Source of the DNA: Tannerella forsythia
GTDB taxonomy: Bacteria > Bacteroidota > Bacteroidia > Bacteroidales > Tannerellaceae
Assembly: GCF_003860135.1 (NCBI RefSeq)
Contig: NZ_RQYN01000012.1
Span: 1-63,845 of the forward strand
DNA length: 63,845 bases
Reading direction: 5' to 3'
A program made the translations under genes and the position numbers. Below are positions 18,561 to 62,325 of the stretch, one piece after another; position 1 is the first letter of the stretch, and each line of letters opens with the position of its first letter. The notes beneath the pieces were generated by a model. The model was not told the DNA's origin and made no database searches. It worked only from the letters and a program-made list of their open reading frames with translations.

Positions 18561-18568
18561 TACATTTG
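18561..18568 (+). promoter_or_regulatory. candidate -7 box for the membrane protein and possibly the hexonate gene set
   Basis: TACATTTG matches TAnnTTTG, 28 bases before the ATG at 18596, just after the glgP terminator. It could drive 18596 through the LarA gene, because gaps between those genes are only 14-43 bases. Confidence 0.45.
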
Positions 18569-18595
18569 TGTATCGTTTTAAAAAAACAAGACACC

Positions 18596-19222
18596 ATGGA
18601 CAAACCAATCATTATCTCCGACCTCTTCCGCAAATCGTGGAAAAGTCTGTGGGCACAAATTTGGGTGCTGAGCGGACTGTTGATCGGCTACGCAATCATC
18701 AGCATGTTGCTTCAAGCCTTTATCCCGATACCTGTCAAGGGAACTTTCAGTATCACCGCGGTAGTCATTACACTAATCGGTCTGCTCATCTCGCTGATCT
18801 TCGAATTGGGATATGTGAAAAACCTTTTTCAGACGATCGACGGTGAAGAGCCGCAGTTCTCGGCCTACGGACAGATGAGCCGCAAAATCTTTGTGTATTT
18901 CGCGGCCCGATTCATTTACGGCCTCATCGTTTGCGTGGGACTGTTGCTGCTCCTCGTGCCGGGCATTTATTTAGCCATCCGCCTCCAGTTTTATTACATG
19001 GCGATCGTAGAAGAAGACGCGGGTATCCTCGACTCGCTCAGGCGAAGTTGGGAGATCACACGCGGTTCGACACCGAAACTTCTTCTGCTCATGCTCCTCC
19101 AGATCGGCATCATACTGGCCGGATTCGCCTTGTTGCTGATCGGCATCTTCGTAGCGCTGCCGCTGTGCGGACTGATGAGCTGCTACGCGTTTCGGCGGCT
19201 GACGGTATCGACCACTTCATAA
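18596..19222 (+). CDS. multi-pass membrane protein, unknown function
   Basis: 208 residues from the ATG MDKPIIISDL. Hydrophobic segments lie at about residues 22-45, 55-78, 110-135 and 170-200. The pattern of a C-terminal RSWEITRG motif followed by LLLLMLLQIGIILAG resembles the membrane domain seen in DUF975- and GDPD-like bacterial membrane proteins. The longer open frame from 18566 runs through the promoter box and was not used. It ends 14 bases before the SDR gene and may be co-transcribed. No specific function can be given. Confidence 0.7.
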   Translation: MDKPIIISDLFRKSWKSLWAQIWVLSGLLIGYAIISMLLQAFIPIPVKGTFSITAVVITLIGLLISLIFELGYVKNLFQTIDGEEPQFSAYGQMSRKIFVYFAARFIYGLIVCVGLLLLLVPGIYLAIRLQFYYMAIVEEDAGILDSLRRSWEITRGSTPKLLLLMLLQIGIILAGFALLLIGIFVALPLCGLMSCYAFRRLTVSTTS

Positions 19223-19236
19223 AATCAAAATACACG

Positions 19237-20049
19237 ATGAATCATTTATTCAGTATAAAAGACAAAGTCATCGTCCTGACAGGAGGCTACGGCGTGCTGG
19301 GACGTTGCATCGCCAAACATTTGGCGCGCGAAGGAGCGAAGGTCGCCATCCTCGGACGGAACGCCGAGAAGGGCGAACGGTTGAAAGAAGAGTTGCGCAA
19401 GCTCGGAGGCATGGCCATGTTTCACGCGGCCGACGTCATGCGGCGCGAACAGCTCGAAGAGAGCCGGCAAGCCATCGTGCAAACATTCGGAAGCATCGAC
19501 GTGCTGATCAATCTGGCGGGAGGCAACATGCCGGGCGCCACGATCGCGCCGGATCGGACGTTCTTCGATCTCGACCTCGACGCTTTCAGGCAAGTCATCG
19601 ACCTGAACCTGTTCGGAACGGTACTCCCGACGATGGTATTTGCCGAGACGATGGTCGGGCAAAAGAAAGGAAGCATCATCAACATCTCGTCCGAATCGTC
19701 CCTGCGACCCTTGACTCGCGTCATCGGTTACGGGTGTGCCAAGGCGGCCGTCAATAACTTCACACAGTATCTGGCCGCCGAGCTGGCCGCGAAATTCGGC
19801 GAAGGGCTGCGGGTGAACGCCATCGCGCCGGGATTCTTCCTGACCGAACAGAACCGCACGCTGATGACGAACGCCGACGGCACACCGACCGACCGCTGCA
19901 ACCGGATCGTCGAACATACGCCGTTCGGGAGATTAGGCCGCCCCGAAGAGCTGCTGGGCACGGTGCAGTGGCTGGCAGCCGACGCGTCGGCTTTCGTGAC
20001 GGGCACGGTGATACCCGTCGACGGCGGATTCAACGCCTTTTCGATTTAA
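19237..20049 (+). CDS. SDR oxidoreductase, probably mannonate/fructuronate type
   Basis: 270 residues, classical short-chain dehydrogenase: cofactor motif TGGYGVLGR (about 15-23), NLAGG in place of NNAG at 92-96, catalytic Ser151/152 in NISSESS, and Tyr165-x3-Lys169 in YGCAK, ending with VDGGFNAFSI. The insert after NLAGGNMPGAT (residues 97-118) resembles the SDR form of D-mannonate oxidoreductase (Bacillus YjmF/UxuB type), which interconverts D-fructuronate and D-mannonate with NAD(P)H. It is followed after 33 bases by a PfkB kinase and a LarA homologue, which supports a hexonate role. Other SDR substrates remain possible. The real start is ATG 19237; the frame is open much further upstream without meaning. 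Confidence 0.72.
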   Translation: MNHLFSIKDKVIVLTGGYGVLGRCIAKHLAREGAKVAILGRNAEKGERLKEELRKLGGMAMFHAADVMRREQLEESRQAIVQTFGSIDVLINLAGGNMPGATIAPDRTFFDLDLDAFRQVIDLNLFGTVLPTMVFAETMVGQKKGSIINISSESSLRPLTRVIGYGCAKAAVNNFTQYLAAELAAKFGEGLRVNAIAPGFFLTEQNRTLMTNADGTPTDRCNRIVEHTPFGRLGRPEELLGTVQWLAADASAFVTGTVIPVDGGFNAFSI

Positions 20050-20082
20050 TCGCACGCATGAACATATAAACGACATACCATC

Positions 20083-21150
20083 ATGACGAAGAAACAATGG
20101 TCGCTCGTCGTACCGACGAGCATGGGGGTGCGGTTGACGCCCGCCGCGCAGGGACAGCCGTTTCATACGAGCCGTTCCCTATTGATGCAGGCCACGAGCG
20201 CCGAAACGAATGTGGCGACGGTGGCGGCATCGCTCGGACTGCCGGTCAAAGCGCTGACGACGTTCGTCAAGGGCAGTCCCGTGGCGCAATTTATCCAAGC
20301 CGATCTGCGCAGCCGCGGCATCGCCTGCGAGGGGCGCGAAGTGCCACAGGGCGGGCCGTGGGGCTTGCGTCATCAGATCAATATGGCCGACAGCGGTTTC
20401 GGCGCGCGAGGGCCGCGCGTGTGGAACGACCGCAGCGGCGAAGTAGGTCGCACGCTGAACGTGCGCGATTTCGACCTCGACCGTCTTTTCGGGCGCGAAG
20501 GCGTGGAGATGCTCCACCTTTCGGGGCTGATCGCGGCACTCTCGGACGAAACGGGCGAGTTTTGCCTCGAGCTGGCGTACGCGGCCAAACGGCACGGTAC
20601 GCGGGTCTCGTTCGACCTGAACTACCGCGCCTCGTTCTGGGAAGGACGCGAGGGCGCGTTGCGCGACGTCTTCGCCCGGATCGCCTCCGTGGCCGACATC
20701 CTCGTAGGCAACGAAGAAGACTTCCAACTCTGCCTCGGCATCGACGGGCCGGAGGCCGGCGGGAAAAACGTCGGCGCCCAAACGGAGCGTTTCAAAGAAA
20801 TGATCCGGAACGTGAAACGCACGTTCTCCGGCGCATCGGTTTTCGCCACGACCTTGCGCGAAGTGTCGGACGCGAACCATCATCTGTGGGGCGCCATCAT
20901 GCTCGCGGGCGATGAGTGGCACTGCGTCGAGCCGCGTCCGATCCGGGTGCTCGACCGCATCGGCGGAGGCGACGGCTTTGTAGGAGGTCTGCTCTACGGC
21001 ATCCTCCGGGGATGGGAGCCGCAAGAGTGGATACGCTTCGGATGGGCTACCGGCGCGCTGGCCGTAACCTCGCTCACCGACTATGCTCAACCGGCCGACG
21101 AAGCGCAGGTATGGAGCATCTGGGAAGGAAACGCGCGGGTGATGCGATAA
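20083..21150 (+). CDS. PfkB-family sugar (hexonate?) kinase
   Basis: 355-residue ribokinase/PfkB-family kinase. The N-terminal half has the AETNVATVAASLGLPVKALT substrate-side region, the middle DLNYRASFWE and VGNEEDFQL, and the C-terminal ATP/anion-hole motif DRIGGGDGFVGGLLYG with the catalytic Asp; the usual GAGD is GGGD here. The DLNYR and NEEDF blocks match 2-keto-3-deoxygluconate kinases, and the protein parallels KdgK at 50635 in the same window. Together with the SDR and LarA neighbours it may phosphorylate KDG, gluconate or a related acid. A hand count of one 60-base line gives about 67% GC, above the rest of the window. Confidence 0.78.
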   Translation: MTKKQWSLVVPTSMGVRLTPAAQGQPFHTSRSLLMQATSAETNVATVAASLGLPVKALTTFVKGSPVAQFIQADLRSRGIACEGREVPQGGPWGLRHQINMADSGFGARGPRVWNDRSGEVGRTLNVRDFDLDRLFGREGVEMLHLSGLIAALSDETGEFCLELAYAAKRHGTRVSFDLNYRASFWEGREGALRDVFARIASVADILVGNEEDFQLCLGIDGPEAGGKNVGAQTERFKEMIRNVKRTFSGASVFATTLREVSDANHHLWGAIMLAGDEWHCVEPRPIRVLDRIGGGDGFVGGLLYGILRGWEPQEWIRFGWATGALAVTSLTDYAQPADEAQVWSIWEGNARVMR

Positions 21151-21193
21151 GCAGGCCCGCGGCCGCGACACTTTTTTCAAAACGACACGAACA

Positions 21194-22465
21194 ATGATCT
21201 ACTACGAACAGGGAGCGCCGGATAAAGCATTCGGCCATGACGAACTGAAGCAGGCCGTGTTTTCGATCCTCGACCGGCTGGGCGAGCGACGCAAAGTATT
21301 GGCCATCCCGCCCGACTTTACCCGCTTCCACTCGCGGGCGGGCGAACTGACACGCTACATTTACGCGTATTACGGCGAACGCCTGACGGATATTCTTCCC
21401 GCCATCGGCACGCATTTTCCGATGACCGACGGGGAGATCGCGAAAATGTTCCCCGGCATTCCCCGCTCGCTCTTTCGCGTGCATGACTGGCGCAACGACG
21501 TGGTGCACGTCGGTACCGTGCCGGCCGAGTACGTCGGCGAGGTATCGGGCGGCGTAGCGCGCTATCCCATGCCCATGCAGGTGAACCGCATGCTCCTCGA
21601 AGGGGGGTACGACCTGATCCTCTCCATCGGGCAGGTGGTGCCGCACGAAGTGATCGGGATGGCGAACTATAACAAGAACCTGCTCGTCGGCACAGGAGGC
21701 GCCGAAGGCATCCACAAGAGCCACTTTATCGGCGCGGCATACGGCATGGAGCGGATCATGGGACGCGCCGACACGCCCGTGCGCCGCGTGCTCAACTACG
21801 CCTCCGAACATTTCATCCGCCACCTGCCGGTCGTCTATCTGCAAACCGTTATTTCGGCCGGGAACGACGGTCTGCAAATGCGCGGCCTCTTCGCGGGCGA
21901 CGATGCCGAATGCTTTGAAAAAGCCGCCGCCCTCTCGTTACGGACCAACTTCATCATGCTCGACCGCGAGATACGCAAAGCTGTCGTCTACCTCGATCCC
22001 GAAGAGTTTCGCAGCACGTGGGTCGGCAACAAAAGCATCTATCGCACGCGCATGGCCATGGCCGACGGCGGCGAACTGATCATCCTCGCCCCCGGCGTTC
22101 GACAGTTCGGCGAAGACGCGCAGAACGATACGCTGATCCGCCGATACGGCTACGTCCCTACGCCGCAAGTACTGCGGTATGTCGAAGAAAACGAAGAACT
22201 GCGACAGGCGCTCGGCGTGGCCGCCCATCTGATTCATGGCACATCGGAAGGACGATTCCGCATCACCTACTGCCCGGGGCATCTGACGCGTCACGAAATC
22301 GAAAGCGTGGGCTTCGGGTATGCCGACCTCGACGCCATGACGCGGAAATATCGCCCGCACACCCTGCGCGACGGCTGGAACACCGTCGACGGCGAAGAAA
22401 TCTACTACATCTCCAACCCCGCGCTCGGTCTTTGGGCCTATCGCAAAAGGTTTGAAGAGACCTGA
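21194..22465 (+). CDS. LarA-family nickel-pincer racemase/epimerase homologue
   Basis: 423 residues, typical LarA length. Landmarks: IPPDFTRFHS (Asp41, Thr43, Arg44) matching the LarA D-x-T-R motif; His97 in RVHDWR; His151 in VVPHEVIG; Lys161 in ANYNKNLL; His174 and His177 in GIHKSHF. These align with lactate racemase residues that hold the nickel pincer nucleotide (a Lys tethers it, His residues bind nickel and act as acid/base). LarA homologues act on various 2-hydroxy acids, and some epimerise hexonates at C2. Next to a mannonate-type SDR and a sugar-acid kinase, D-gluconate/D-mannonate is the likely substrate pair, but lactate is not excluded. LarB, LarC and LarE for cofactor synthesis are not in the window. 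Confidence 0.8.
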   Translation: MIYYEQGAPDKAFGHDELKQAVFSILDRLGERRKVLAIPPDFTRFHSRAGELTRYIYAYYGERLTDILPAIGTHFPMTDGEIAKMFPGIPRSLFRVHDWRNDVVHVGTVPAEYVGEVSGGVARYPMPMQVNRMLLEGGYDLILSIGQVVPHEVIGMANYNKNLLVGTGGAEGIHKSHFIGAAYGMERIMGRADTPVRRVLNYASEHFIRHLPVVYLQTVISAGNDGLQMRGLFAGDDAECFEKAAALSLRTNFIMLDREIRKAVVYLDPEEFRSTWVGNKSIYRTRMAMADGGELIILAPGVRQFGEDAQNDTLIRRYGYVPTPQVLRYVEENEELRQALGVAAHLIHGTSEGRFRITYCPGHLTRHEIESVGFGYADLDAMTRKYRPHTLRDGWNTVDGEEIYYISNPALGLWAYRKRFEET

Positions 22466-22517: not shown

Positions 22518-22590
22518 TGAACAAATTTCGAACCATATCGATTCGAGTCGTTTAGCCGAGGGCTGGCGTGCCCCGCGCGAAGAAAAAAAA

Positions 22591-22892
22591 GTTTTGCATG
22601 ATGCTTGCGGCAGCCACGCAAGGGCCATACAGTTTTGCATGATGCTTGCGGCAGCCACGCAAGGGCCATACAGTTTTGTATGATGCTTGCAGCAGCCACG
22701 CAAGAGCCATACAGTTTTGTATGACGCTTGCAGCAGCCACGCAAGGGCCATACAGTTTTGTATGATGCTTGCAGCAGCCACGCAAGAGCCATACAGTTTT
22801 GCATGACGCTTGCAGCAGCCACGCAAGAGCCATACAGTTTTGTATGACGCTTGCAGTCCCCACATAAGAGCCATACGGTTTTGTATGAAACA
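22591..22892. repeat. 41-bp tandem array, seven units plus a partial
   Basis: Units begin with GTTTTG at 22591, 22632, 22673, 22714, 22755, 22796 and 22837, with a partial eighth from 22878. The period is exactly 41 bp throughout. Each unit carries CTTGC, eight bases, then GCAAG, a 5-bp stem hairpin, and ends with CCATACA. A few positions alternate (C/T in ATGAYGC, A/G in GCAAGRGCC). Because 41 is not a multiple of three and the minus strand of the unit has no stop, long spurious frames appear there. It occupies most of the 484-base gap between the LarA and DUF6261 genes. Confidence 0.92.
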
Positions 22893-47640: not shown

Positions 47641-49068
47641 CTACAGTTTTTCAATCGGTCGATATTTCGGTACAAGGCTTTTCATCACCACCCAACCAAT
47701 CAGATAGGCTACGGCGCAAACACAGAAGATGATAAAATAACCGGCCGGTTTACCTTCGAAGCCGAAGCATTGCAGATTCGTCTCACCGGCATACACGAAA
47801 AGTTTACCGGCCGACTTCTGAAGGATCAGCGAGCCGATGCCTCCTGCCATACCACCGATACCAGTCACGGATGCGATGGCCGACTTGGGAAACATATCGC
47901 CGATGGTCGAAAAAATATTGGCCGACCACGATTGATGTGCCGCCCCTCCAAGTCCGATCAAGATAACGGGGAACCATGGGGAGATCGTACCTAACGGTTG
48001 TGCCATCAGCACAATCAGAGGTATGAAGGCAAAGATAAGCATGGCCTGCATTCTCGCGGCATACGGATTCTTCCCGGTCTTGTCGATAATGATAGTCGGC
48101 AGTTTACCCCCATAAACCGAGAGCATCGTAATAGCATAGAGCGTAAAGATAAGCGCCATACCGAGTCCGTCGGTCGTTTTGATACCGAATTGCGTGTTCA
48201 GATAAGACGGAATCCAGAAGAGGAAGAACCACCACACGCCATCGGTCATAAACTTACCGAACGCGAAAGCCCACGTCTGTCGGTGCATAAAACAACGGGC
48301 AAACGAGCTTTTCTCTTCCGACACATCGGCGGACTGACTGTCCGTTTCTTTATCCGAAAGAATATAGTCGAGTTCGGCCTGATTGACACGCGCGTTCTTC
48401 TCCGGTTTTTCATACATAAAAACCCAGAATCCCATCCATACGAACCCCAATGCTCCGATGATGATAAAAGCCATTTCCCAGCCGAACGCTTTGGCCAGAG
48501 GAGGAATAGACAGCGGAGCGATCAACGCGCCGATCGACGCACCGGCGTTAAAGATGCTCGTGGCATAGGCGCGGTCTTTCTTCGGAAAATATTCGGCCGT
48601 CACTTTGATGGCTGCGGGGAAGTTGCCGGCCTCACCGATCGCCAACACACAACGTGCGATGATAAAAGCGTACATGCTCACCGTAGCGATAACGACAGCG
48701 ATATCGCCTGTAGCCTGTGCCAATTCGGCTGCTGAGGCGAGTCCGGTGTATTGCTCGGTAACGATGCCGCACAACGCATGAATACACGCTCCTGCCGACC
48801 AGACGCCAATAGCCCACAAGAAGCCTTTCTTACTTCCCAGCCAGTCGACAAACCGGCCGGCAAAAAGCATCGAGACGGCATAGACGAGCGAGAACAGCCC
48901 TGTGATCGTTCCGTAATGATCTTCGTTCCAATGAAATTCGGGCTTGATAAATTCATCCCATGTGAGCGACAACACTTGCCGGTCTAAGTAATTGATCGTC
49001 GTTGCAAAGAAAAGCAACGCGCAGATCACCCACCTGTAATTTGTCTTTTGTTCGTTTCTCATGTTCAT
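47641..49068 (-). CDS. MFS hexuronate-type transporter (ACS family)
   Basis: 475 residues, twelve membrane segments. The start NYRWVICALLFFATTINYLDRQVLS and the loop AGRFVDWLGSKKGF are the ACS-family (ExuT/GudP-like) signature; the second half has FMTDGVWWFFLFWIPSYL. It should import hexuronates or their unsaturated/keto forms across the inner membrane by proton symport. Last gene of the large operon, 48 bases after KDPG aldolase, so it is the inner-membrane step between periplasmic depolymerisation and cytoplasmic catabolism. Confidence 0.9.
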   Translation of the reverse strand: MNMRNEQKTNYRWVICALLFFATTINYLDRQVLSLTWDEFIKPEFHWNEDHYGTITGLFSLVYAVSMLFAGRFVDWLGSKKGFLWAIGVWSAGACIHALCGIVTEQYTGLASAAELAQATGDIAVVIATVSMYAFIIARCVLAIGEAGNFPAAIKVTAEYFPKKDRAYATSIFNAGASIGALIAPLSIPPLAKAFGWEMAFIIIGALGFVWMGFWVFMYEKPEKNARVNQAELDYILSDKETDSQSADVSEEKSSFARCFMHRQTWAFAFGKFMTDGVWWFFLFWIPSYLNTQFGIKTTDGLGMALIFTLYAITMLSVYGGKLPTIIIDKTGKNPYAARMQAMLIFAFIPLIVLMAQPLGTISPWFPVILIGLGGAAHQSWSANIFSTIGDMFPKSAIASVTGIGGMAGGIGSLILQKSAGKLFVYAGETNLQCFGFEGKPAGYFIIFCVCAVAYLIGWVVMKSLVPKYRPIEKL

Positions 49069-49116
49069 ATTCTACTCCTTTACTACCTTTTACTACTTTA
49101 ACTATCCTACTCTTTT

Positions 49117-49809
<693 letters not shown>

Positions 49810-49813
49810 TTAC

Positions 49814-50605
49814 TTAAGGCTGCTTGCCGATGTAAGCAAGGATGCCTCCGTCGACATAGAGGATGTGGCCGTTCACGAAGTCCGAAGCGTTGGAAGCCAA
49901 AAAGACAGCAGGCCCGGCCAAATCGTCGGGTGTTCCCCATCGTGCGGCCGGCGTCTTGGCAATGATGAAAGAATCGAACGGATGGCGCGAACCGTCGGGC
50001 TGTAGTTCACGCAGCGGCGCCGTTTGCGGTGTGGCGATGTAGCCCGGCCCGATGCCGTTACATTGAATATTATACTGTCCATATTCCGAGGCAATATTCC
50101 GTGTCAGCATTTTCAGTCCTCCTTTGGCGGCAGCATAAGCCGATACGGTTTCACGTCCCAATTCACTCATCATCGAGCAGATATTGATAATCTTTCCGTG
50201 TCCTTTTTTGATCATGGCCGGAATAACCGCCTTGGCCACAATAAACGGAGCATTCAGATCGATGTCGATCACTTGTCGAAACTCTTCGGCGCTCATCTCA
50301 TGCATCGGGATGCGTTTGATGATACCGGCGTTGTTGACCAGGATGTCGATCGTTCCCACTTCCTTCTCTATTTGTGCCACCATCGCGTTGACCGCCTTTT
50401 CGTCGGTCACATCGCAGATGTATCCTTTAGCCTCTATCCCGGCTTCTTGATACGCTTTTAATCCTTTGTCGACAAACTCCTGTTTCAGATCGTTAAAGAC
50501 GATGGTCGCTCCCGCTCCGGCTAATGCCGACGCTATCGCGAAACCGATACCGTAAGATGCTCCTGTTACGAGCGCAACCTTACCTTCTAATGTAAACTGT
50601 TCCAT
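49814..50605 (-). CDS. kduD: 2-dehydro-3-deoxy-D-gluconate 5-dehydrogenase
   Basis: 263-residue SDR. TGASYGIGFAIA (cofactor), NNAGIIKRIPMHEM, Ser144 in NICSMMSELG and Tyr157-x3-Lys161 (YAAAK) are present, then GPGYIATPQTAPLREL and VDGGILAYIGKQP at the end. The IIKRIP and TAPLRE words are typical of KduD/gluconate 5-dehydrogenases. It reduces 2,5-diketo-3-deoxygluconate, the product of KduI, to KDG. Only 30 bases separate it from the kinase gene. Confidence 0.92.
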   Translation of the reverse strand: MEQFTLEGKVALVTGASYGIGFAIASALAGAGATIVFNDLKQEFVDKGLKAYQEAGIEAKGYICDVTDEKAVNAMVAQIEKEVGTIDILVNNAGIIKRIPMHEMSAEEFRQVIDIDLNAPFIVAKAVIPAMIKKGHGKIINICSMMSELGRETVSAYAAAKGGLKMLTRNIASEYGQYNIQCNGIGPGYIATPQTAPLRELQPDGSRHPFDSFIIAKTPAARWGTPDDLAGPAVFLASNASDFVNGHILYVDGGILAYIGKQP

Positions 50606-50634
50606 ATCGTTTTATTTTTTGTTATTTGGATATA

Positions 50635-51675
50635 TTATCTTATGACTCTGCCCGAACCGTCACCTTTCATCAACTGCTCCACCTCAGCGACCGACACGAG
50701 GTTAAAATCTCCGTAAACGGTATGCTTCAGACACGACGCCGCCACGGCAAAATCGAGCGCCTGCTGATCGTCGTTCGGGTAGGTGATCAAGCCGTAGATC
50801 AGTCCGCCCATAAAAGAGTCGCCCCCTCCTACTCGATCTACGATATGCGTAATGTCGTATCGACGCGATGCATACAGTTTGTCCGAATATAAACATCCTC
50901 CCCACGTATTGTGGTTGGCGTTGATCGATCCGCGCAGAGTGATAATGACCTTCCGGGCACGCGGAAATCTCCGCATCAACTGCCGACAGACGGACTCGAA
51001 CTCTCCGGCCTCCAGTTGACCTCCGGTATACTCGGCCTGAAAACCGTCCGGCTGGATGCCGAAAACTTTCTCGGCATCTTCCTCGTTTCCGAGAATGACA
51101 TCACAGCCTTCCACAAGCGCGGGCATGACTTCTGAAGCTTTTTTCCCGTATTTCCATAAATTCTTCCGGTAATTCAAGTCACACGAAACGGTAACGCCCA
51201 TCTCATTGGCCGTCCGTATCGCTTCGAGGCATGCGTCGGCCGCGCCCTGCGAGAGGGCCGGCGTAATACCTGTCCAATGAAACCACTGTGCATCCTTCAG
51301 CACTTCTTTCCAGTCGATCATTCCCGGCGTAATCTCGGCCATGGCAGATCCGGCACGGTCGTACACGACTTTCGAAGGCCGTGCTACCGCTCCCGTTTCC
51401 AGAAAATAGATACCTACGCGATTACCCCCTCGAAGGATGTGCCGTACCCCCACATTGCATTTTCGCAGTTCGGAGATGCACCATTCGGCAATCTCATTTT
51501 GAGGTAGACGTGTAATGAACTCAACGGGGATGCCGTAATTAGCGAGTGACACGGCGACATTGGCTTCGCCTCCACCGAATGTGGCCCCGAGAGCGGTAGA
51601 CTGGATAAACCGCAAATAATTCGGAGTCGCTAAACGAAGCATGATTTCTCCGAAGGTGATGACTTTCTTTTGCAT
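50635..51675 (-). CDS. kdgK: 2-dehydro-3-deoxygluconokinase
   Basis: 346-residue PfkB kinase phosphorylating KDG to KDPG. MLRLATPNYLRFIQS near the N-terminus, FGGGEANVAVSLANYGIP, DLNYRKNLWKYGKKA, LGNEEDAEKVFGI and the ATP/anion-hole motif DRVGGGDSFMGGLIYG (Asp base) are all KdgK-like. It is a paralogue of the kinase at 20083, which keeps the DLNYR and GGGD blocks. Lies between the lyase and KduD genes. Confidence 0.93.
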   Translation of the reverse strand: MQKKVITFGEIMLRLATPNYLRFIQSTALGATFGGGEANVAVSLANYGIPVEFITRLPQNEIAEWCISELRKCNVGVRHILRGGNRVGIYFLETGAVARPSKVVYDRAGSAMAEITPGMIDWKEVLKDAQWFHWTGITPALSQGAADACLEAIRTANEMGVTVSCDLNYRKNLWKYGKKASEVMPALVEGCDVILGNEEDAEKVFGIQPDGFQAEYTGGQLEAGEFESVCRQLMRRFPRARKVIITLRGSINANHNTWGGCLYSDKLYASRRYDITHIVDRVGGGDSFMGGLIYGLITYPNDDQQALDFAVAASCLKHTVYGDFNLVSVAEVEQLMKGDGSGRVIR

Positions 51676-51714
51676 ACTGAATATATCTATCTTGTATTGT
51701 GACGAATGAAAAAA

Positions 51715-53643
51715 TTATTTCCTCGATATGACGATACGATAATGACCGCTTAGAGGCGTCTCTTTAGCTTCAAGCGTAATCCTGTACAACTCTTTCCCCC
51801 ACACATTCGACAAACGCGGATCAGTTAACGTAACCGTCTCGACAGAAGCGGCAAACACATTCTTATCGTACGACAGACGCGCTTTTTTCCCCTGTACTTC
51901 GATATCGATCTGTCCATCCATACTCCGATCCACTTTCCCCCATGTCAGGAAATGAAGTCTGTTCCTTTTTTCGGGCGATCTAAGCGAAAAACGGTCATCT
52001 ATTTCGAGTCGTTTATCCCGTAGCCGGTAAACTCTGTTCCATGAATGTATGGAGGAGGTTTCCTGAGGATAGGCCTGTTTCAGTTCGAGCGATAAGGTCC
52101 GGCTTGCCGGTGTGAACTCCATCTGCTCCGCTTTATATTTCGCCCCGAATGCCTGCTGGGTTCCGTTGATTTCCGGCAGATTGTGGTAAAGACTTTGCAT
52201 CGTCCAGATGGTATATCGTTCATTGCTGAATGTCTGCCGAGTATAAGTACCTACGCCTGCATCGATCAGTACGGGGGTCTCATCGATATACAACGAAAAG
52301 GTACCCACATCGTTGTGATTATGGCTTTCGTTGTTATGCCCGCCCTTACCGGCAAAGAAGAGTCCGCCACGCGTTCTCATGTAACAGAACTGGGTTTCGG
52401 GATACCACGTAGTAGACGGGGTAGAATAAGGTAGCGTCACCATGCTCAGCGCATGACGATAGCGTAGTGTTTCGAATGTCCGATATACGTCCCGGCGGTT
52501 ATTCGGAGCTTGCGGTGCCTGCACATTCTTTCTGAGAAAGGCGGCAAAAGCCATCATCTCGGTGCTGTTTACCGCTTTTCCGTACCGATAGATCAGATCG
52601 GCATCGGGATCAAGTCGGGCCGTAGCATCGGCGAAATTGACAACCCAGCCGTTGCCAACGTACGAGCGAGAGATATATTCGCCCATGCGGCGGATCAAAG
52701 GATCGTCGAAGAGGGAAAGTTGTCCACCGGTAGCATCGCTAAGAAGCTGTAAGTAATCGTACAGTTTCCCTGCTGCGTGTCCCCAATAGGATGGTCCCTC
52801 CTCGCAGGCTCCGTCGGCATTGCTGTAGTTGATGAAATGATCGACCGATCGTATCGTTTTGTAGACCGCTTCGGCCAGTCTGTCGGTATCTTTTTCGAGC
52901 AGCATGAAACACTGGAGCACGCTAAAGTTACACCACGGATTCCAGTTGTTCACCATATCTCCCGGCTTATAATTTATGGCCATCCACCAGAAATGATCGC
53001 TGTCGAGATACGTTTTCAGGATTCGTTTCTCGATCTCATCACGCAACCGCTCGGATATGAGGGGATTGATTTTATCCAGTTCCTTACCGAAAAAGTAATG
53101 AATCCACGAAAGTTCGGCACCGATTTCGCCCGAGGCAAGGGCAATCACATGCTCCTTATGGCTCGGAAGCGTCCGTTTGTCGTGTTGCATCCGCACATGA
53201 GCCGAGAGAGTCCATGAGGTCATCTCGCAGAAATAAAAGACACCGTTAGCCAAAGGTTCAATGAAGCGTCCTTTCCCTTCGGCAAGTTCAGCCAGAAAAA
53301 GATCGGTCAGGGTCTGGGCGTTTTCGTTATACGGATTTTCCATGATCTTCCGTGATCCGCTTCGTTCGTATTCCAGATAGTCCGTTGCTTGAATAACCTG
53401 CCAGCGATAATCCAACGCTTTTTCTCCACGTTGGATATAGAAATCTTTGAATTCGCCGAACAAATCATCCCACCCTTTGCGATCCGTATAATCAGGGTAA
53501 ACGACCCATTGTTGACGCAAGACGAGCCAATCCTTTAGCTTCTCCTCCGAAATTTTCCGTTGCAACAAGTTCTTTTCGGTATAGGCAAACAGCATGCCAG
53601 CCGACGAGACGAATATGATAAGAAAAAGAACTAATTTCTTCAT
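51715..53643 (-). CDS. heparinase II/III-like polysaccharide lyase
   Basis: 642 residues with a signal peptide (cleavage after LFA near residue 20). The N-terminal (alpha/alpha) toroid spans to about residue 370 and the C-terminal anti-parallel beta part contains the heparinase II/III core GGHNNESHNHNDVGTF then DETPVLIDAGVGTY. Candidate catalytic residues, by analogy with PL12 heparinase III, are Asn in VNNWNPWCN, Tyr in GPSYWGHAAG and His in SHNHND. It should cut uronic-acid glycosidic bonds by beta-elimination, leaving the unsaturated uronate that GH88 removes. Exact PL family (12, 21, 33 or other) and glycan are not decidable here. Confidence 0.88.
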   Translation of the reverse strand: MKKLVLFLIIFVSSAGMLFAYTEKNLLQRKISEEKLKDWLVLRQQWVVYPDYTDRKGWDDLFGEFKDFYIQRGEKALDYRWQVIQATDYLEYERSGSRKIMENPYNENAQTLTDLFLAELAEGKGRFIEPLANGVFYFCEMTSWTLSAHVRMQHDKRTLPSHKEHVIALASGEIGAELSWIHYFFGKELDKINPLISERLRDEIEKRILKTYLDSDHFWWMAINYKPGDMVNNWNPWCNFSVLQCFMLLEKDTDRLAEAVYKTIRSVDHFINYSNADGACEEGPSYWGHAAGKLYDYLQLLSDATGGQLSLFDDPLIRRMGEYISRSYVGNGWVVNFADATARLDPDADLIYRYGKAVNSTEMMAFAAFLRKNVQAPQAPNNRRDVYRTFETLRYRHALSMVTLPYSTPSTTWYPETQFCYMRTRGGLFFAGKGGHNNESHNHNDVGTFSLYIDETPVLIDAGVGTYTRQTFSNERYTIWTMQSLYHNLPEINGTQQAFGAKYKAEQMEFTPASRTLSLELKQAYPQETSSIHSWNRVYRLRDKRLEIDDRFSLRSPEKRNRLHFLTWGKVDRSMDGQIDIEVQGKKARLSYDKNVFAASVETVTLTDPRLSNVWGKELYRITLEAKETPLSGHYRIVISRK

Positions 53644-53678
53644 TTTTATATCTTCATTATTTAGGGAATGACGTGTAT

Positions 53679-55229
53679 TTATTCATACGTAATCAAATCT
53701 TTCAGAATACCATCTTTATACCACGGATCATCGTGTTTTTTGAGTAACTGTCCCAACTGCTTCAATAATTGTCGTTTCAGCTCAGGCCGGGTATTCCAAT
53801 CGATGTGATGCATCTGATACGGATCATCGAGATCATCAAACAACAGGACTTCTTTCAGTTGCTTATTCTCCTTATCGATTGTAAGCGAGAGCGTGTAACG
53901 ATGCGTTTTAATACCACGCGCTACCGGGACATACGTTCTCACCTTACCGTCCTGATCTGGAGGACCATCCATATTGCGGATATATAACGCACCATCGGGC
54001 AACGACTTGTCAGGTTGATTGGTCAACATCGCTTGTGAGAAGTCGGTACCTTGTACCTCATTCGGAATCTGTTGGCTCAAATTACTCAGTCCAAGAAGGG
54101 TTGGCATAATATCCGGACTGGAGAGCAAATAGTCGACGATGCGCGGTTTGAGTCGATCGGGGTAACGTACCAGCAAGGGAACATTCATCGATTCAAAGTA
54201 AGGAGAGTTTTTGGCGTCTTGCAAGCCATGGCTGCACATCGTTTCACCGTGATCGGACGAAAAGACGACGATGGTATTCTTCGACAATCCTAATTCATCC
54301 AGCGTATCGAGCAAACGGCCGAACTCCCGGTCTACTCCGCTGATCTGGGCAAAATAATATGCGGCTGAAGAAGCCTTCTCCATCATTGTGTCGACATTGA
54401 GACGTAGCAGGAGCTGACTCAACGGTCGATCTTTATACAAATTGTAATCATCCTCCATACAGTCGTCTAACGAGTGATACGGGTGATGCGGCGGGTTCAT
54501 GCTGATCATCAGAAAGAACGGCTTGGATGCGTCACGCCGCCCGGATTCATTTTTCAAGTAGCTGATGGCCATATCGGTTTCGTGCGAAGGCGACCATTGG
54601 TTAATGTCATGGCGTTTACCGTCCGTATCCCAGTAATGCGGATTCTTATGTACATCGAATGTGCCGTACGAATACCAGAAGTTGAAACCATGTCGTTTTT
54701 CGGGAGGAGTGTAAGCATCCCAAACGGGATCGCGGTGCTCAACGTAGCTTCCCGGATTTTCCGGATCATTCGGCATAGGGGTATCCAGATGGTACTTACC
54801 GATATAAGCACAGTCGTAACCGTTCCGGCTAAAGACGTCGCTTACTGTTGTGGCATCGTCGCGCAGTGAGCTGAAAGGGCGCCTGCTGTTTACGTTGAGC
54901 GGCACGCCGCTCCGGTGAGGATACATGCCCGTAAGCAGCGACGCACGATGCGGACTGCTTAAGGGACAGTTGCTCATGGCCGAAGAGAAAACGACCGACT
55001 CTTTGGCAAAACGGTTGAGATTCGGCGTTTCGACCGGATCTGCCTGACCTTGCAGATGCGGAGCAAAAGCCGGATCATTCCAGAAGCCCATCGCGCTGTT
55101 GCGCATCTGGTCGGGGAAAACATAGACAACGTTGGGACGTAAGGTGTCGCCGGCACGATATTCCTGTGCATGCATGCAAGCCGGAATGACCCCCATAAGT
55201 CCCAAACAAGACAGCTTAGAGGCTTTCAT
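53679..55229 (-). CDS. serine-type S1 sulfatase
   Basis: 516 residues, signal peptide to about residue 22 (PACMHA-Q). Metal site NVVYVFPDQMRNSAMG, then the formylglycine region SNCPLSSPHRASLLTGMYP: the residue before x-P-x-R is Ser, so maturation needs an anaerobic sulfatase-maturating enzyme (anSME), not in the window. The fourth position is His instead of the usual Ser or Ala. Further conserved pieces: YIGKYHLDTP, NPPHHPYH and FSSDHGETMCSHG. Removes sulfate esters from the polysaccharide or its oligosaccharides in the periplasm. Overlaps the DUF4861 gene by 4 bases. Confidence 0.92.
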   Translation of the reverse strand: MKASKLSCLGLMGVIPACMHAQEYRAGDTLRPNVVYVFPDQMRNSAMGFWNDPAFAPHLQGQADPVETPNLNRFAKESVVFSSAMSNCPLSSPHRASLLTGMYPHRSGVPLNVNSRRPFSSLRDDATTVSDVFSRNGYDCAYIGKYHLDTPMPNDPENPGSYVEHRDPVWDAYTPPEKRHGFNFWYSYGTFDVHKNPHYWDTDGKRHDINQWSPSHETDMAISYLKNESGRRDASKPFFLMISMNPPHHPYHSLDDCMEDDYNLYKDRPLSQLLLRLNVDTMMEKASSAAYYFAQISGVDREFGRLLDTLDELGLSKNTIVVFSSDHGETMCSHGLQDAKNSPYFESMNVPLLVRYPDRLKPRIVDYLLSSPDIMPTLLGLSNLSQQIPNEVQGTDFSQAMLTNQPDKSLPDGALYIRNMDGPPDQDGKVRTYVPVARGIKTHRYTLSLTIDKENKQLKEVLLFDDLDDPYQMHHIDWNTRPELKRQLLKQLGQLLKKHDDPWYKDGILKDLITYE

Positions 55230-56368
55230 TCAACGTTTATTTTGAGAGGTTGTTTGATTTTCAAGGCTTCCTGTTGCAGGAAATCGATCCACGCGGCAAA
55301 ATGTTCGAACCCTGCCTTACTCCATCCGGCACCGACATAATATACATAATTCGTTTTTGTGCGATAAGGAGCGATACCTAACAAATGACCGGCGTCGGTT
55401 TTGATTTCACGGAACGGTTCCGGGCGGATTACGCCGGCGTAGATCGTTCCGTTAAGCGAGTCGGTAGGCGTTTTACAAGCCATGATCCCCCCTTCCGCAT
55501 CAGAAAGAACATCTTCAGTCGTTTGTGCATGCAACACGATCCCGGTAGCCAGTGTCATCTCGGCCGTATCGGCCTCGAATAACTGCTCAATCCGGTTGAA
55601 ATAGCTATACGCATCGAGTGAGATTCGACGCGTCTCATTCACTTCCGTGCCCTGCACGTTATACGGTTTGTAACGAAGCTCGAATGCTATGCGTAAAGGC
55701 CCTTGATCAAGCATCCTGTATTCCGTAAAATTATTTCCGAGCCACAAACTGTCGTCGACGTAAGGAGCCGTCATTCCCAGCCCAAGCGTACGTCCTACTT
55801 TATAGAAATCCAACCCCTCGCCATGATCTTCGTGATAAGAGCGAACACCGGACAGATCGTCCTTATACCACCGGTCGATAACAAGCGCCTCGGTACGTTT
55901 AGCCCAGAAATCCATTCCGTTACTGATTTCGCCGGTAGCTTCTAATGCCGGTCCGTACACCCGGAAAGCGCTACGGTTGTTCTCCCATGTAAAGTCATCT
56001 TTCCGTTCAGGTACAAAACGGCCGTACGTCATCGGCTCCACATGGGCCGGTTCACCGGCAGTTATGCGGTATTCGGCTTTCCCGTTTCCGGAAAGGCTTA
56101 CAGGGAAGATAAGGCTCACAGGAATTTCGTTTCCTCCGGTGATAAGCTGGCTGGGGATTTCTTCCGAAGCGTTATTATACACCACGACGGTTTGTCCATC
56201 GTGCAACGAGAGTTTCTCGCAAACAGTAGCCCACGCTATTTCGACCATTTCGTGGTTACGATCGAATGTCGCAGGATTCTCGACCGTTACCCGTATCGTT
56301 TCCTGCGTCTTTGTACAGGCTACTACGGCAAACAGGCCACAGAAGGCAAGGAAAAAGGAATATTTCAT
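55226..56368 (-). CDS. DUF4861 family lipoprotein
   Basis: 380 residues from ATG 56368 (MKYSFFLAFCGLFAVVAC, lipoprotein Cys18). Beta-rich protein with RVTVENPATFDRNHEMVEI, then YHEDHGEGLDFYKVGRTLGLG and YVYYVGAGWSKAGFEHFAAW, which I recognise as DUF4861. The fold recalls the super-sandwich of carbohydrate-active enzymes and the conserved His/Glu/Tyr suggest an enzyme, but no activity is known to me. It is coupled by a 4-base overlap to the sulfatase and is 13 bases after KduI, so it belongs to this degradation pathway. Confidence 0.8.
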   Translation of the reverse strand: MKYSFFLAFCGLFAVVACTKTQETIRVTVENPATFDRNHEMVEIAWATVCEKLSLHDGQTVVVYNNASEEIPSQLITGGNEIPVSLIFPVSLSGNGKAEYRITAGEPAHVEPMTYGRFVPERKDDFTWENNRSAFRVYGPALEATGEISNGMDFWAKRTEALVIDRWYKDDLSGVRSYHEDHGEGLDFYKVGRTLGLGMTAPYVDDSLWLGNNFTEYRMLDQGPLRIAFELRYKPYNVQGTEVNETRRISLDAYSYFNRIEQLFEADTAEMTLATGIVLHAQTTEDVLSDAEGGIMACKTPTDSLNGTIYAGVIRPEPFREIKTDAGHLLGIAPYRTKTNYVYYVGAGWSKAGFEHFAAWIDFLQQEALKIKQPLKINVE

Positions 56369-56381
56369 CTTCGACCTGTCA

Positions 56382-57224
56382 TTATTGAAGTTCGGTAATT
56401 TTTGAAAAATCCTGATCGCTGTAATCAAGATTTTCTCCGGCCATTCCCCAGATAAACGTATAATTGCTTGTTGCGGCGCCCGAATGGATAGACCACTCGG
56501 GTGAAAGCACGGCCTGATCTCCTCTCATCCAAATGTGTCTCGTTTCGTTCGGTTCACCCATGAAATGGCAGACAGCCTGATCTTCCGGTACCTCGAAATA
56601 GAAATACGCTTCCATACGACGGCTGTGCACATGCGCGGGCATCGTGTTCCATACGCTTCCCACGGCAAGCTCCGTCATCCCCATCTGCAACTGACAGGTA
56701 GGCAACACTTCATTGACAATCATTTTATTAATCTTACGATGGTTCGAGGACTCAAGCGAGCCAAGTTCCATCACGATCGCATTCGCTTTCGTCACCTTCT
56801 TGTCCGGATAGTTTCGGTGTGCCGTGGCCGAGTTGAAATAAAATTTAGCCGGCCGACTCTCGTCCAAGCTCTCGAAATACACTTCCCGATCACCTGAACC
56901 TAAATAGAGTGCTTCTTTATAGTCGAGTTCAAAAACATCATCACCGACTTTCACAGATCCTTTGCCTCCGACATTGTAAATCCCCAACTCACGTCTCATC
57001 AGAAACACCGGCTGTTTCAACGGGTCGATCGCCTCGAGTCGAAGGGTTTCCCCTACGGGCATCGCTCCGCCTACGACCATCCGGTCATACATCGAATATA
57101 CCATATTCACCTCGTTGGGAACAAATAACGTTTCTATCAAAAAATCTCTTCTCAGTCGTTGCGTATCATACGCCTTCGCATCTTCGGGATGCGCTGCATA
57201 ACGCAGCTCATAATTTGTCTTCAT
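56382..57224 (-). CDS. kduI: 5-dehydro-4-deoxy-D-glucuronate isomerase
   Basis: 280 residues from ATG 57224 (MKTNYELRYAAHPEDAKAY), normal for KduI; the open frame extends to 57254 without homology. Cupin metal site: MPAHVHSRRMEAYFYFEVPE (two His, Glu) with the later His in VCHFMGEP. VGGKGSVKVGD and YLGSGDREVYF are also typical. It isomerises the spontaneously opened unsaturated uronate (4-deoxy-5-keto-uronate) to 2,5-diketo-3-deoxygluconate for KduD. First enzyme gene after the hairpin that separates it from SusD. Confidence 0.95.
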   Translation of the reverse strand: MKTNYELRYAAHPEDAKAYDTQRLRRDFLIETLFVPNEVNMVYSMYDRMVVGGAMPVGETLRLEAIDPLKQPVFLMRRELGIYNVGGKGSVKVGDDVFELDYKEALYLGSGDREVYFESLDESRPAKFYFNSATAHRNYPDKKVTKANAIVMELGSLESSNHRKINKMIVNEVLPTCQLQMGMTELAVGSVWNTMPAHVHSRRMEAYFYFEVPEDQAVCHFMGEPNETRHIWMRGDQAVLSPEWSIHSGAATSNYTFIWGMAGENLDYSDQDFSKITELQ

Positions 57225-57331
57225 TTTGTTCGATTGGTTTTGTTTTGCACACAAATATAAGAAATAAATCGCATCTTCTCTTCGGTCGGAAGAGATTCAT
57301 TACCGACGTTCTACGCTGTCGGGAAAGTTGC

Positions 57332-57397
57332 GGCCTTATCTGCCGCAGAACAGGCTTTCCTGTAACGGGTAAGCACTGTCTTGCGGCAGAATAGGCC
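57332..57397 (-). promoter_or_regulatory. long hairpin between SusD and kduI
   Basis: Bases 57332-57347 and 57382-57397 form a 16-position stem with a two-base mismatch in the middle (arms begin GGCCTTATC and end GAATAGGCC); the loop holds a smaller ACAGG/CCTGT hairpin. The words GCTGTC-GGGAA flank it on both sides. It lies in a 199-base gap, the largest in this operon, and may terminate, attenuate or process the mRNA. Confidence 0.6.
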
Positions 57398-57423
57398 TGA
57401 TATGGCTGTCCGGGAAGATAGAA

Positions 57424-59130
57424 TTACCATCCGGGGTTCTGTATCAACTTGTCGTTCTTGTCGATTTCTTCTATCGGGATCGGCCAGAGGAAGTCACGAT
57501 CACGTACGACACGTTTATAGTATTTAGCGCCTGTGAAGCCAGTTTCCCATTTTCCGTCGAGCAGTTGCTTCAGTAAATCCCACCGGCGCAGGTCACTGAA
57601 ACGCACCCCTTCACCGGCCATCTCCACAGCACGTTCGTGCATGATACGCTTGAACACTTCTTCTTTTGTCGAAGCCTTCAGCCAATCCGGTCCGCTGTTC
57701 AATCCGGGCATCTCCACACGCGCTCTGACCTGATTGATCAACTCAACGGCACGCGCTTGGTTACCGACTTCGTTGTGACATTCGGCACACATCAGCAACA
57801 CGTCCGCATAACGGATGATCGGGAAATTAATCGGCGTATGTTCACGCTTTGTGATGGAGCCGTCCATGTCATATTCGGGAACGAATTTACGCCACGGATA
57901 GGAGTCGGACATACTTCCGTTGATACGGATAAAACCGTTTTTCTCATTGACGCCTTTGGCGACAACATATTCACAATCTTTACGAGCGTTAGATACCCAT
58001 CCGTTGTATCGGGAGTAAGGCAGGATGATCGAAGCCGCCATGCGGGGATCGCGTTGAGCATACATTTCGAGCAATTTTTCTTTCATTGCAGGGTATTTCT
58101 CCACCTTCGTTTTATTGGCGGTTAACGTAGCCCGGAACGTTTTGTCCTTTATTTTATCGTCGCCCTTAAAGCCGGGAACGACTTCATCCCAGTCGAACGG
58201 CCGACCGTCTTTCCATTCATACGAATCGACGAAGGAGGTAGCGGCCATCACGTTGTTCCAACAACTACCGTAAGTAGCACGCGTTCCCATAAACTTGGCC
58301 AGCGGCATACCGAATTCGGTACCCACACCGCTCATATTCTGCACGGCAAAAATCATTTCGGTACTTTCATCGCCTCCGGGCTTAAACAAAGCAGAATAAT
58401 CCGGATAAAGAACAATGCCCGAGGTTTTGATTACTTCTTCGAAAACATCGGCTGCTTCTTTATATTTTTTCGCATAGAGCAGCGTTTTGCCTTTCAGCGA
58501 AAGAGCAGCCCAGCGGGTTGCCCGTCCGCGGTTCGGTTTATCCCACTGCGCGGGCAGTGTCTGAGCCGCTTCATCCAAGTCTTTGAGAATAAATTCATGC
58601 ACAGCCTCTTTCGTATCTCTCGGTTTGAGCATATTCGCAAAATCCTTGGCTACAACGGTCGTTTCGTCGTAGAGCGGTATGCCTCCATAGAAGTCGCACA
58701 ATGTAAAATAATACAACGCTCTCATAAATCGTGCTTCGCCTTTGTAACGGGCTTTCAACTCATCGCTCATCGTAATTTTATCGACATTCTGCAACACGAT
58801 ATTCGCTCGTGCGACGCCTTCGTAAAGATTGGCGAATTTATTCGCGCAATAATCTTCCGAACTGTTATAGGTTCCGCGCGAAATGCGGAAGTACGCCGGG
58901 TTATCGTAACCGGTTCCAATATCGGAAAGACAGTCGAAGCCGTACTGAATCCCGAACACATGGTCGTTCTGCATCTGGGCATAAACGCCCATCATGGCCT
59001 GGTCGGCATGGCTTTGGGTTTTCCAGAAGGAATTTTCGCCCAATTCGTCGGCCGGTTCTCTATCGAGGTCGTAGCAAGAGAAGAACAGAGCGGCCTGTAT
59101 CATTGATAAAAGAATATATTTATATTTCAT
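57424..59130 (-). CDS. SusD-like nutrient-binding lipoprotein (first pair)
   Basis: 568 residues; lipoprotein signal MKYKYILLSMIQAALFFSC (Cys19) then DLDREPADELGENSFWKTQSHADQA. TPR helices include YKGEARFMRALYYFTLCDFY and GRATRWAALSLKGKTLLYAKKY; the C-terminal RagB domain has IIRYADVLLMCAECHNE and FLWPIPIEEIDKNDKL. It is 11 bases after its SusC partner. Expected to bind the sulfated uronate polymer at the outer surface. Confidence 0.94.
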   Translation of the reverse strand: MKYKYILLSMIQAALFFSCYDLDREPADELGENSFWKTQSHADQAMMGVYAQMQNDHVFGIQYGFDCLSDIGTGYDNPAYFRISRGTYNSSEDYCANKFANLYEGVARANIVLQNVDKITMSDELKARYKGEARFMRALYYFTLCDFYGGIPLYDETTVVAKDFANMLKPRDTKEAVHEFILKDLDEAAQTLPAQWDKPNRGRATRWAALSLKGKTLLYAKKYKEAADVFEEVIKTSGIVLYPDYSALFKPGGDESTEMIFAVQNMSGVGTEFGMPLAKFMGTRATYGSCWNNVMAATSFVDSYEWKDGRPFDWDEVVPGFKGDDKIKDKTFRATLTANKTKVEKYPAMKEKLLEMYAQRDPRMAASIILPYSRYNGWVSNARKDCEYVVAKGVNEKNGFIRINGSMSDSYPWRKFVPEYDMDGSITKREHTPINFPIIRYADVLLMCAECHNEVGNQARAVELINQVRARVEMPGLNSGPDWLKASTKEEVFKRIMHERAVEMAGEGVRFSDLRRWDLLKQLLDGKWETGFTGAKYYKRVVRDRDFLWPIPIEEIDKNDKLIQNPGW

Positions 59131-59141
59131 GATGGTATGGA

Positions 59142-62100: not shown

Positions 62101-62285
62101 TCGGTTATCGTTCCCTGCGCCGTATTACCTTTGACGATAATCGTCGCACCGATGACGGGTTCCTTCCGTGTATCGGAAACCGAACCGCGCACGGTAAGTC
62201 CGCTTTGTGCGAGAACATACATGGGTAAGAGCCCGATACATGTAAGGATACATCTTTTCCAAAAATCGTTAACTGTTTTCTTCAT
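59142..62285 (-). CDS. SusC/RagA-type TonB-dependent transporter (first pair)
   Basis: 1047 residues. Signal peptide to VLA-Q (about residue 27), N-terminal carboxypeptidase-D-like domain (TVRGSVSDTRKEPVIGATII), TonB-box region LDEVVVVGYGTQKKVNLTGSV, plug motif YGSRAANGVVLITTKQGK, and barrel ending MKQAVAGINLSF. Imports oligosaccharides produced at the surface into the periplasm. Starts 40 bases after GH88 and is followed by SusD. Confidence 0.95.
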   Translation of the reverse strand: MKKTVNDFWKRCILTCIGLLPMYVLAQSGLTVRGSVSDTRKEPVIGATIIVKGNTAQGTITDMDGKYELKDVPSDATLVFSYIGTKTQEIAVEGRSTIDVTLSEDDRLLDEVVVVGYGTQKKVNLTGSVASINMNELTESRPITNTSHALAGMVAGVSVRSGKNQPGDDNASILVRGQGTLNSSAPLIIIDGVEAGINTVNPQDIETMSVLKDAASASIYGSRAANGVVLITTKQGKEGVVKIDYNGYISSESIRKTLTPVSNYADYMELINEGWKNSGKPRVFSDESIKAWRDNAGRDPLKYPNTDWVDETFRPSVSTNHTLSVSGGSKNIRYYGSFGYLDNPGVMENTGYTRYNARLNLDAHLKPWLKIGAQLSGYVSDMEPAAGSVVQDVFTYTSATTPGMVFRAPDGRYGAMNNLEDASQSANNNPIRRLNSIAGHTRKNNLRSRFFGEFAPFKGFTITGSYSYEFVDTQGENKPVFHDGWNFADNTVTLPGKGKTSIFNRNDKIERFFNDVVARYETNLADNRLGLKVMLGASQELYRNRRFSVRRFNQIDPSLDVLDGAIGESSSSGTRTEWAMHSHFGRVNVDWDNKYLLEVNLRSDASSRFAKNKRRGYFPSVSGAWRIDQEAFMAPLTEKGLSNLKLRASYGSLGNNAVGNYDAIAAYSNIMNRGKKNEYKFGYVLDNAAVIALAQTAIANFDLSWESTYVTDFGIDFGLAGNRLTGTIDYFDKKTKNILINLPAPAVHGTASIPKQNSAQVTNRGIEITLGWRDQIGDFSYSAEVNFTHVTNNVDKFKGKEYSLNGEVNMIREGLPINSQYMLRVDRIIQTDADLAIVQKMIDEAPVVNGKKVNPFASFGRPEKGDLLYRDINQDGVIDENDRTIVSDGPNPKYFFGLNLGASYKGIDFSMLLQGQAGVKVYWQHSPYNTPTVRTGYQLNKAVTDGRWYEGRTDATYPRLLDYSDRRNIIASDFYLEDKAFLKIRNIQLGYTLPKSLTQKIRIERIRLYGSLENFFTFTGYRGFDPEVSGLDYPSMKQAVAGINLSF

Positions 62286-62325
62286 GATTCATTTGAATGT
62301 TTTGTAATAAGGTGTTTGATATATC

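Follow-up and report, generated by a model that had tools for sequence, protein, structure and literature searches.

How can a bacterium keep an enzyme built around a cofactor when the genes for making that cofactor are not found in its genome? This question is raised by three adjoining genes of Tannerella forsythia, which encode a short-chain dehydrogenase/reductase (SDR), a PfkB-family kinase, and a homologue of LarA. They lie on contig NZ_RQYN01000012.1 (63,845 nucleotides; hereafter, the window), which is the whole of contig C14 in genome G000, an assembly of 3.3 Mb in 226 contigs with a completeness of 99.98%. An earlier note on this sequence had proposed that the genes lead from fructuronate through mannonate and gluconate to a phosphorylated acid and so replace mannonate dehydratase. 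According to our analysis, they are likely the core of a shunt from hexuronates to pentose phosphate, and the LarA homologue, a member of LarA group 18 (LarA18), is most likely a hexonate 2-epimerase dependent on a scavenged nickel-pincer nucleotide (NPN). If the shunt operates, import of NPN is somewhat likely. For the whole statement, the shunt together with imported NPN, we estimated a rough probability of 0.42.

The three genes are real, as all three frames are open on the forward strand, and the gaps between them measure 33 and 43 bases, as the earlier note had given (Table 1). The LarA protein matched NF052594 ("nickel-dependent putative hexonate epimerase") over its whole length, with a score of 654.6 bits for a cut-off of 500. 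It also matched Pfam Lar_N with 30.3 bits (cut-off 23.3) and was the sole Lar_N match in the genome. By these scores, it is a clear member of the NPN_18_hexonate family, as the earlier note had supposed of its C2-epimerase kinship, and hexonate epimerisation is its predicted activity. Lactate and malate racemases were ruled out by score (NF033504, 11.7 bits for a cut-off of 460; NF052593, 31 for 500; NF052595, 22 for 462). The closest named relative, L030 from Tannerella sp., is 98% identical, and the next ones are mostly from Tannerella (74-79%). The nearest PDB match was 4NAR, the GntE2 protein (E 4.8e-37; profile E 1.1e-47). The SDR scored above the cut-off of the D-mannonate oxidoreductase family, which bears out the mannonate/fructuronate type assigned to it, and its reaction would be the interconversion of fructuronate and mannonate. 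Its frame was listed from an earlier TTG at 18931, and the ATG at 19237 was read as the start. SDR relatives adjoin LarA18 in other genomes.

Conservation of the active site was read in two sets of proteins. The first comprised 12 sequences found by hidden Markov model (HMM), that is, 12 of the 13 proteins over the cut-off, with G002 left out because it had no locus; this set is free of motif-selection bias. The second comprised 81 aligned proteins, for which 80 loci were fetched, the best 80 of more, by a scan requiring GQVVPHEV or GMA[NS]YNKN. The D-x-T-R motif (D41, T43, R44), H151, and K161, all named beforehand, were present and invariant in the 12 HMM-found sequences, as were H177, H74, E152, V153, A344, and H345. 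Among the 81 proteins, D41, T43, R44, H74, H151, E152, V153, K161, H177, K280, and H345 were invariant, while A344 was seen in sets of 12 and 40 sequences. The spacings of LarA around its tethering lysine are kept exactly (H174 to K184, 10; K184 to H200, 16), so His151 corresponds to LarA His174 and His177 to LarA His200. Of the pair His174/177 first suggested, only the latter stood, since residue 174 is Asn in the other 11 of the 12 sequences. His97, earlier taken as catalytic, is invariant in 80 of the 81 proteins; nevertheless, LarA His108 most probably has its counterpart in His74, within the G-T-H motif, because the spacing from Asp to His is 33 for His74 and 56 for His97, against 36 in LarA (D72 to H108).

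The residue signature of GntE enzymes, E, V, A, H at LarA positions F175, F176, W358, and T359 (PMC11770544), was found as E152, V153, A344, and H345 by alignment through 4NAR, the last two being placed by sequence alignment and not by structure. For GntE2, the residues listed in PMC7583248 are E155, S156, K164, and H180. A LarA subfamily with a His-to-Asn change (LarASp, LarABw; PMC12611868) likewise has a suspected role in carbohydrate metabolism; the window protein was excluded from it, as it keeps both catalytic histidines, H74 and H151.

From the families, gene order, and conserved residues, we infer the reactions of the shunt, which of epimerase and kinase acts first, and the import of the cofactor. 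The SDR would reduce D-fructuronate to D-mannonate, which LarA18 would turn into D-gluconate by inversion at C2, the tethered NPN accepting a hydride and handing it back. The companion PfkB kinase would then phosphorylate the hexonate to 6-phosphogluconate, which 6-phosphogluconate dehydrogenase (Gnd), encoded on another contig (TIGR00873, 775 bits at G000:C2:3639-5033), would convert to ribulose 5-phosphate. Such a shunt would not need mannonate dehydratase, and the NPN of the holoenzyme, or a late precursor of it, would come from outside the cell.

This chemistry largely repeats the published hypothesis for LarA group 18 and is not new, because hexonate epimerisation was already proposed for that group in PMC7583248 (2020), which leaves its function as a hypothesis and shows that members of groups 19 and 20 act as D-gluconate 2-epimerases. 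According to the same source, D-mannonate probably gains access to the pentose-phosphate pathway through GntE2, and a GntE/GntK route had been proposed by Rodionova 2012 (via PMC6978723 and PMC7583248). Thermotoga maritima GntE2 (LarAH20, 4NAR), itself a published D-gluconate 2-epimerase, resembles the window protein in family, in cofactor and catalytic residues, and in the Glu after the catalytic His; the GntE/GntK route also shares the hexuronate gene context and the exit to 6-phosphogluconate. However, GntE2 belongs to group 20 and is distant (131 bits, compared with 957 for the 98% identical L030), and the kinase of the window is a PfkB. Moreover, T. maritima, used as a control, matches the LarC model over its cut-off, whereas no larB, larC, or larE was found in G000.

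The gene neighbourhood of relatives strengthens the predicted hexonate route, as it ends in Gnd. Within 9 kb of the best 80 LarA18 loci from named genomes, the neighbour clusters were Gnd (45/80), a LacI-type regulator (28/80), PdxB-like and UxaC proteins (24/80 each), and UxaE (22/80); one representative was named per cluster, and the clusters took in 74 of the 80 LarA genes, six having been displaced by a longer frame. Full flanks, of 4.5 kb or more upstream and 3 kb or more downstream, were available for 45 loci, of which 33 harbored Gnd within 7 kb of LarA18. Chance clustering was ruled out, since the neighbourhood recurs in other phyla. In a genome of the same genus (G011), a single contig carries YciC-like, LacI, SDR, PfkB, LarA, PdxB-like, MATE, and Gnd genes in this order; in G000, contig C2 carries the PdxB-like, MATE, and Gnd genes next to one another where it begins. 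The window departs from this order at a 41-bp tandem repeat array behind LarA, and similar 41-bp repeats stand at the start of G000:C2 (L124 1-170), before PdxB-MATE-Gnd; therefore, either the cluster was split at the repeats or the assembly was wrongly joined there. In L030, too, the contig stops some 200 bases past LarA. In several Bacteroidota, a gene for a PdxB-like 4-phosphoerythronate dehydrogenase separates LarA18 from Gnd, as in L127 (5139-6314). In six loci (L074, L083, L090, L091, L092, and L102), pyrophosphate-phosphofructokinase-like and HAD-family proteins occur near LarA18 and Gnd without the companion PfkB.

The kinase admits more than one reading. None of the NCBIfam models matched it at its cut-off: the best match was trifunc_aldol, the kinase part of fusions of KHG/KDPG aldolase (4-hydroxy-2-oxoglutarate and 2-keto-3-deoxy-6-phosphogluconate) and kinase, with 164 bits for a cut-off of 700, a weak comparison given that the presumed true 2-keto-3-deoxygluconate (KDG) kinase of the window also falls below it at 495 bits. 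NF041332 (98.5 of 440 bits) and NF052444 (32 of 400) lay further below. These scores, with the KDG kinase 2AFB among its PDB matches and UxuA near LarA18 in some genomes, would fit a KDG kinase beside a LarA18 that merely links the gluconate and mannonate pools, the KDG coming from a dehydratase outside our search. We consider this distinctly unlikely. The far better KDG kinase of the window (50635-51675, 495 bits to the same model) lies one gene from Eda and is only 29% identical to the companion PfkB, and no UxuA match was found in G000. The companion subfamily, defined by at least 480 bits to the window kinase, was present in 22 full-flank loci, 19 of them also with Gnd and two with UxuA. 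Three loci (L048, L087, and L096) encode two PfkB proteins: the companion adjoins LarA, and the other, a distant one scoring 115-122 bits, adjoins Eda. Because a separate KDG kinase and KDPG aldolase exist elsewhere in the window, the companion is probably a hexonate kinase, for gluconate or mannonate, feeding Gnd.

The sequence is compatible with such a kinase acting on either side of the epimerase. In the reverse order, PfkB would be a mannonate kinase and LarA18 the missing 6-phosphomannonate 2-epimerase that yields 6-phosphogluconate for Gnd. Both activities were demonstrated in Lactobacillus suebicus extracts, with genes unassigned (Valk 2020, PMC6978723), and the SDR-PfkB-LarA-Gnd order and the Gnd association fit either sequence of steps. 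Nonetheless, GntE1, GntE2, and LarAH15 act on unphosphorylated D-mannonate or D-gluconate, and no residue evidence of a phosphate pocket was obtained, so that we regard this order as unlikely. The isomerase/phosphoketolase hybrid route of L. suebicus resembles our proposal in having UxuB, in a proteome with no mannonate dehydratase detected, and in the exit via 6-phosphogluconate dehydrogenase; it differs in the reversed order of phosphorylation and epimerisation and in linking activities without assigned genes. Its UxaC and UxaE have counterparts among the neighbours at other LarA18 loci.

The earlier note had named the absence of larB, larC, and larE as a result that would refute its route, and none of the three was found over the curated cut-offs in G000, where the sub-threshold matches were PurE, GuaA, an ArgG-like protein, QueC, and NAD synthase. 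We do not read this absence as refuting the enzyme chemistry, because the residues that bind the cofactor are kept intact under constraint; it does, however, pose the question of the cofactor source. The three genes usually accompany LarA in its host and do not define the protein family. It is also not confined to G000. In the order sample (42 genomes with LarA18, that is, 43 matches less G015 at 19 bits, with G166 and G274 partial, and 253 genomes without), LarB and LarC were both missing from 18 of the 42 LarA18 genomes; the same held for 12 of the 28 LarA18 genomes at least 95% complete and for 25 of the 50 in the named set. The named and unnamed sets overlap and are not independent, as G330/G282 and G313/G008 gave identical match places. 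Neither this lack of larB and larC in so many hosts of group 18 nor any mention of larA without larBCE was found in the mainly open-access literature searched.

Conversely, LarC was present in 23 of the 42 LarA18 genomes, compared with 11 of the 253 others (odds ratio 27, p 6e-15). This strong association, together with the intact cofactor residues, argues for a dependence of LarA18 on NPN, whereas the repeated absence of larBCE argues against NPN synthesis in many hosts. The two are most simply reconciled if NPN or a precursor is taken up, and since no larB, larC, or larE was found in G000, import would be the most likely source there. The alternatives to uptake are an unknown synthesis route, missed genes, and a different cofactor.

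Another explanation is that the genes exist and were missed, through assembly gaps or strong divergence. The 226 contigs of G000, the fragmentary state of most examined genomes, and a named set that comes without completeness values are in line with this, and so is a divergent LarB accompanied by a short LarC-like protein in G155, G349, G355, and G356, which shows that the LarB/LarC family has distant forms. Even so, we hold this explanation to be improbable: G000 is 99.98% complete and its sub-threshold matches are other enzymes; LarB, LarC, and LarE exceeded their cut-offs in the same six of 21 genomes (LarE was tested in these 21, LarB in overlapping sets of 21 and 80); the near relative from another record (L030, G307) also lacks LarB and LarC, as do G335 and G350, whose records are not titled as metagenome-assembled genomes, and the highly complete genomes counted above. 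The divergent LarB proteins (G155; G349, L072; G355, L087 Carboxylicivirga linearis; G356, L096 Geofilum rubicundum) scored 174-186 bits, and the short LarC-like proteins (71-90 bits, 268-284 amino acids) are on the same contig, about 1 kb or less away in G155, G349, and G356; the two are possibly a variant NPN synthesis set. In addition, the genomes of L068, L070, and L075 (Planctomycetales, Phycisphaerales, and Planctomycetota) have LarA18 and LarB over the cut-off with no LarC match, and G004, of the same genus and 93% complete, has LarB, LarC, and LarE and lacks LarA18.

We defined orphans as LarA18 hosts without LarB and LarC, and compared them with producers. D41, R44, H74, H177, K161, and K280 showed no variation across 26 sequences from orphans and 19 from producers. 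By a simple counting estimate, the ratio of nonsynonymous to synonymous change (dN/dS) between orphans was 0.058 for the window and L030, 0.085 for L043/L044, and 0.039 for L054/L056, and it was 0.051 for the orphan/producer pair L031/L035; in four other pairs, synonymous change was saturated or nearly so and gave no ratio except 0.053 for L054/L066. There is no sign of decay in orphan LarA18. Such constraint in measured pairs, with 18 of 42 LarA18 genomes lacking both genes, would also be expected if LarA18 in larBCE-free genomes used another cofactor or served another function and kept the NPN residues for a different reason. This seems improbable as well, given the strong co-occurrence of LarA18 and LarC. 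Orphans and producers are intermixed in the tree, and none of the alignment columns tells the two completely apart, so a cofactor switch would have recurred without trace. In a quickly built tree of 51 proteins, 10 changes of the orphan label were required, at least five of them forced by starred branches, and orphan L031 and producer L035 were sisters (SH-aLRT 91, not starred). Gain and loss of the epimerase thus seem to have been uncoupled from those of cofactor synthesis on several occasions.

Several observations weigh against the shunt with imported NPN. Besides the missing cofactor genes, we are aware of no NPN importer and identified none. Orphans group together on the tree more than in shuffles (10 changes, compared with a shuffled mean of 17), so the orphan counts are not independent events. 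By sequence, the companion PfkB is nearest to KDG kinases. Among the 45 full-flank loci, 14 had Gnd without the companion PfkB, and nine had LarA18 without the companion PfkB, UxuA, or Gnd. Part of the conservation of H151, E152, V153, and K161 among the 80 loci follows from how they were selected, because the scan required one of the two motifs. Finally, UxuA was positively associated with LarA18 in the order sample (14 of 42 LarA18 genomes, compared with 42 of 253 others; p 0.018), so LarA18 does not generally replace UxuA, and replacement as a general rule was ruled out. The proposed replacement of mannonate dehydratase fits G000 itself, which gave no match to UxuA (TIGR00695) in a search that did not extend to mannonate or gluconate dehydratases of the enolase type. 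Within the sample, UxuA without LarA18 occurs in the three genomes that share the family of G000 and belong to other genera. Taken as a whole, the route from fructuronate to a phosphorylated acid was favored by the family assignments, the GntE signature, and the Gnd neighbourhood, whereas the unfound larBCE and the unexplained cofactor source told against it.

Beyond the cluster, a YciC-like gene lies upstream, as in L127 and in 8 of the 80 LarA18 loci. A scan for promoters and terminators gave counts no higher than in shuffles. On the reverse strand (47641-63540), we observed a glycosaminoglycan-type utilisation locus, a possible uronate source for the route. It encodes a major facilitator superfamily transporter, KDPG aldolase, a gluconate 5-dehydrogenase/KduD-like SDR, and the KDG kinase, as well as a heparinase II/III-like lyase, a sulfatase, a BT3233-family protein, KduI, SusD, SusC, and a GH88-like hydrolase.

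Table 1. Features in and around the LarA18 cluster of the window.
Feature	Position	Strand	Evidence or remark
SDR, D-mannonate oxidoreductase family	19237..20049	+	NF006132 385.5 bits, cut-off 281
PfkB-family kinase, LarA18 companion subfamily	20083..21150	+	PF00294 87 bits, cut-off 25.8
LarA homologue group 18, putative NPN-dependent hexonate 2-epimerase	21194..22465	+	NF052594 NPN_18_hexonate
D41-F-T43-R44, cofactor-site motif (LarA D72/R75)	21314..21325	+	D, T, R invariant 81/81
His74, probable LarA His108 equivalent (general acid/base)	21413..21415	+	G-T-H motif invariant 81/81; aligns with GTH of 4NAR
His151-Glu152-Val153, LarA His174 equivalent and GntE-type specificity loop	21644..21652	+	aligns with H154-E155-S156 of 4NAR
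Lys161, LarA Lys184 equivalent, cofactor tether	21674..21676	+	aligns with K164 of 4NAR; invariant
His177, LarA His200 equivalent, nickel ligand	21722..21724	+	aligns with H180 of 4NAR; invariant
YciC/UPF0259-like membrane protein gene, upstream of cluster	18566..19222	+	PF06790 36.5 bits
41-bp tandem repeat array, 7.3 copies	22590..22888	+	departure point from the relative's SDR-PfkB-LarA-PdxB-MATE-Gnd order

Tentatively, NPN may be a shared, vitamin-like cofactor. Many Bacteroidota would keep a constrained LarA18, would have lost or never gained larBCE, and would depend on NPN or a late precursor from the community. The combination of larBCE without larA was reported for about 15% of the genomes analysed in PMC11796402; if the proposal is true, such genomes would be a possible supply side of NPN.

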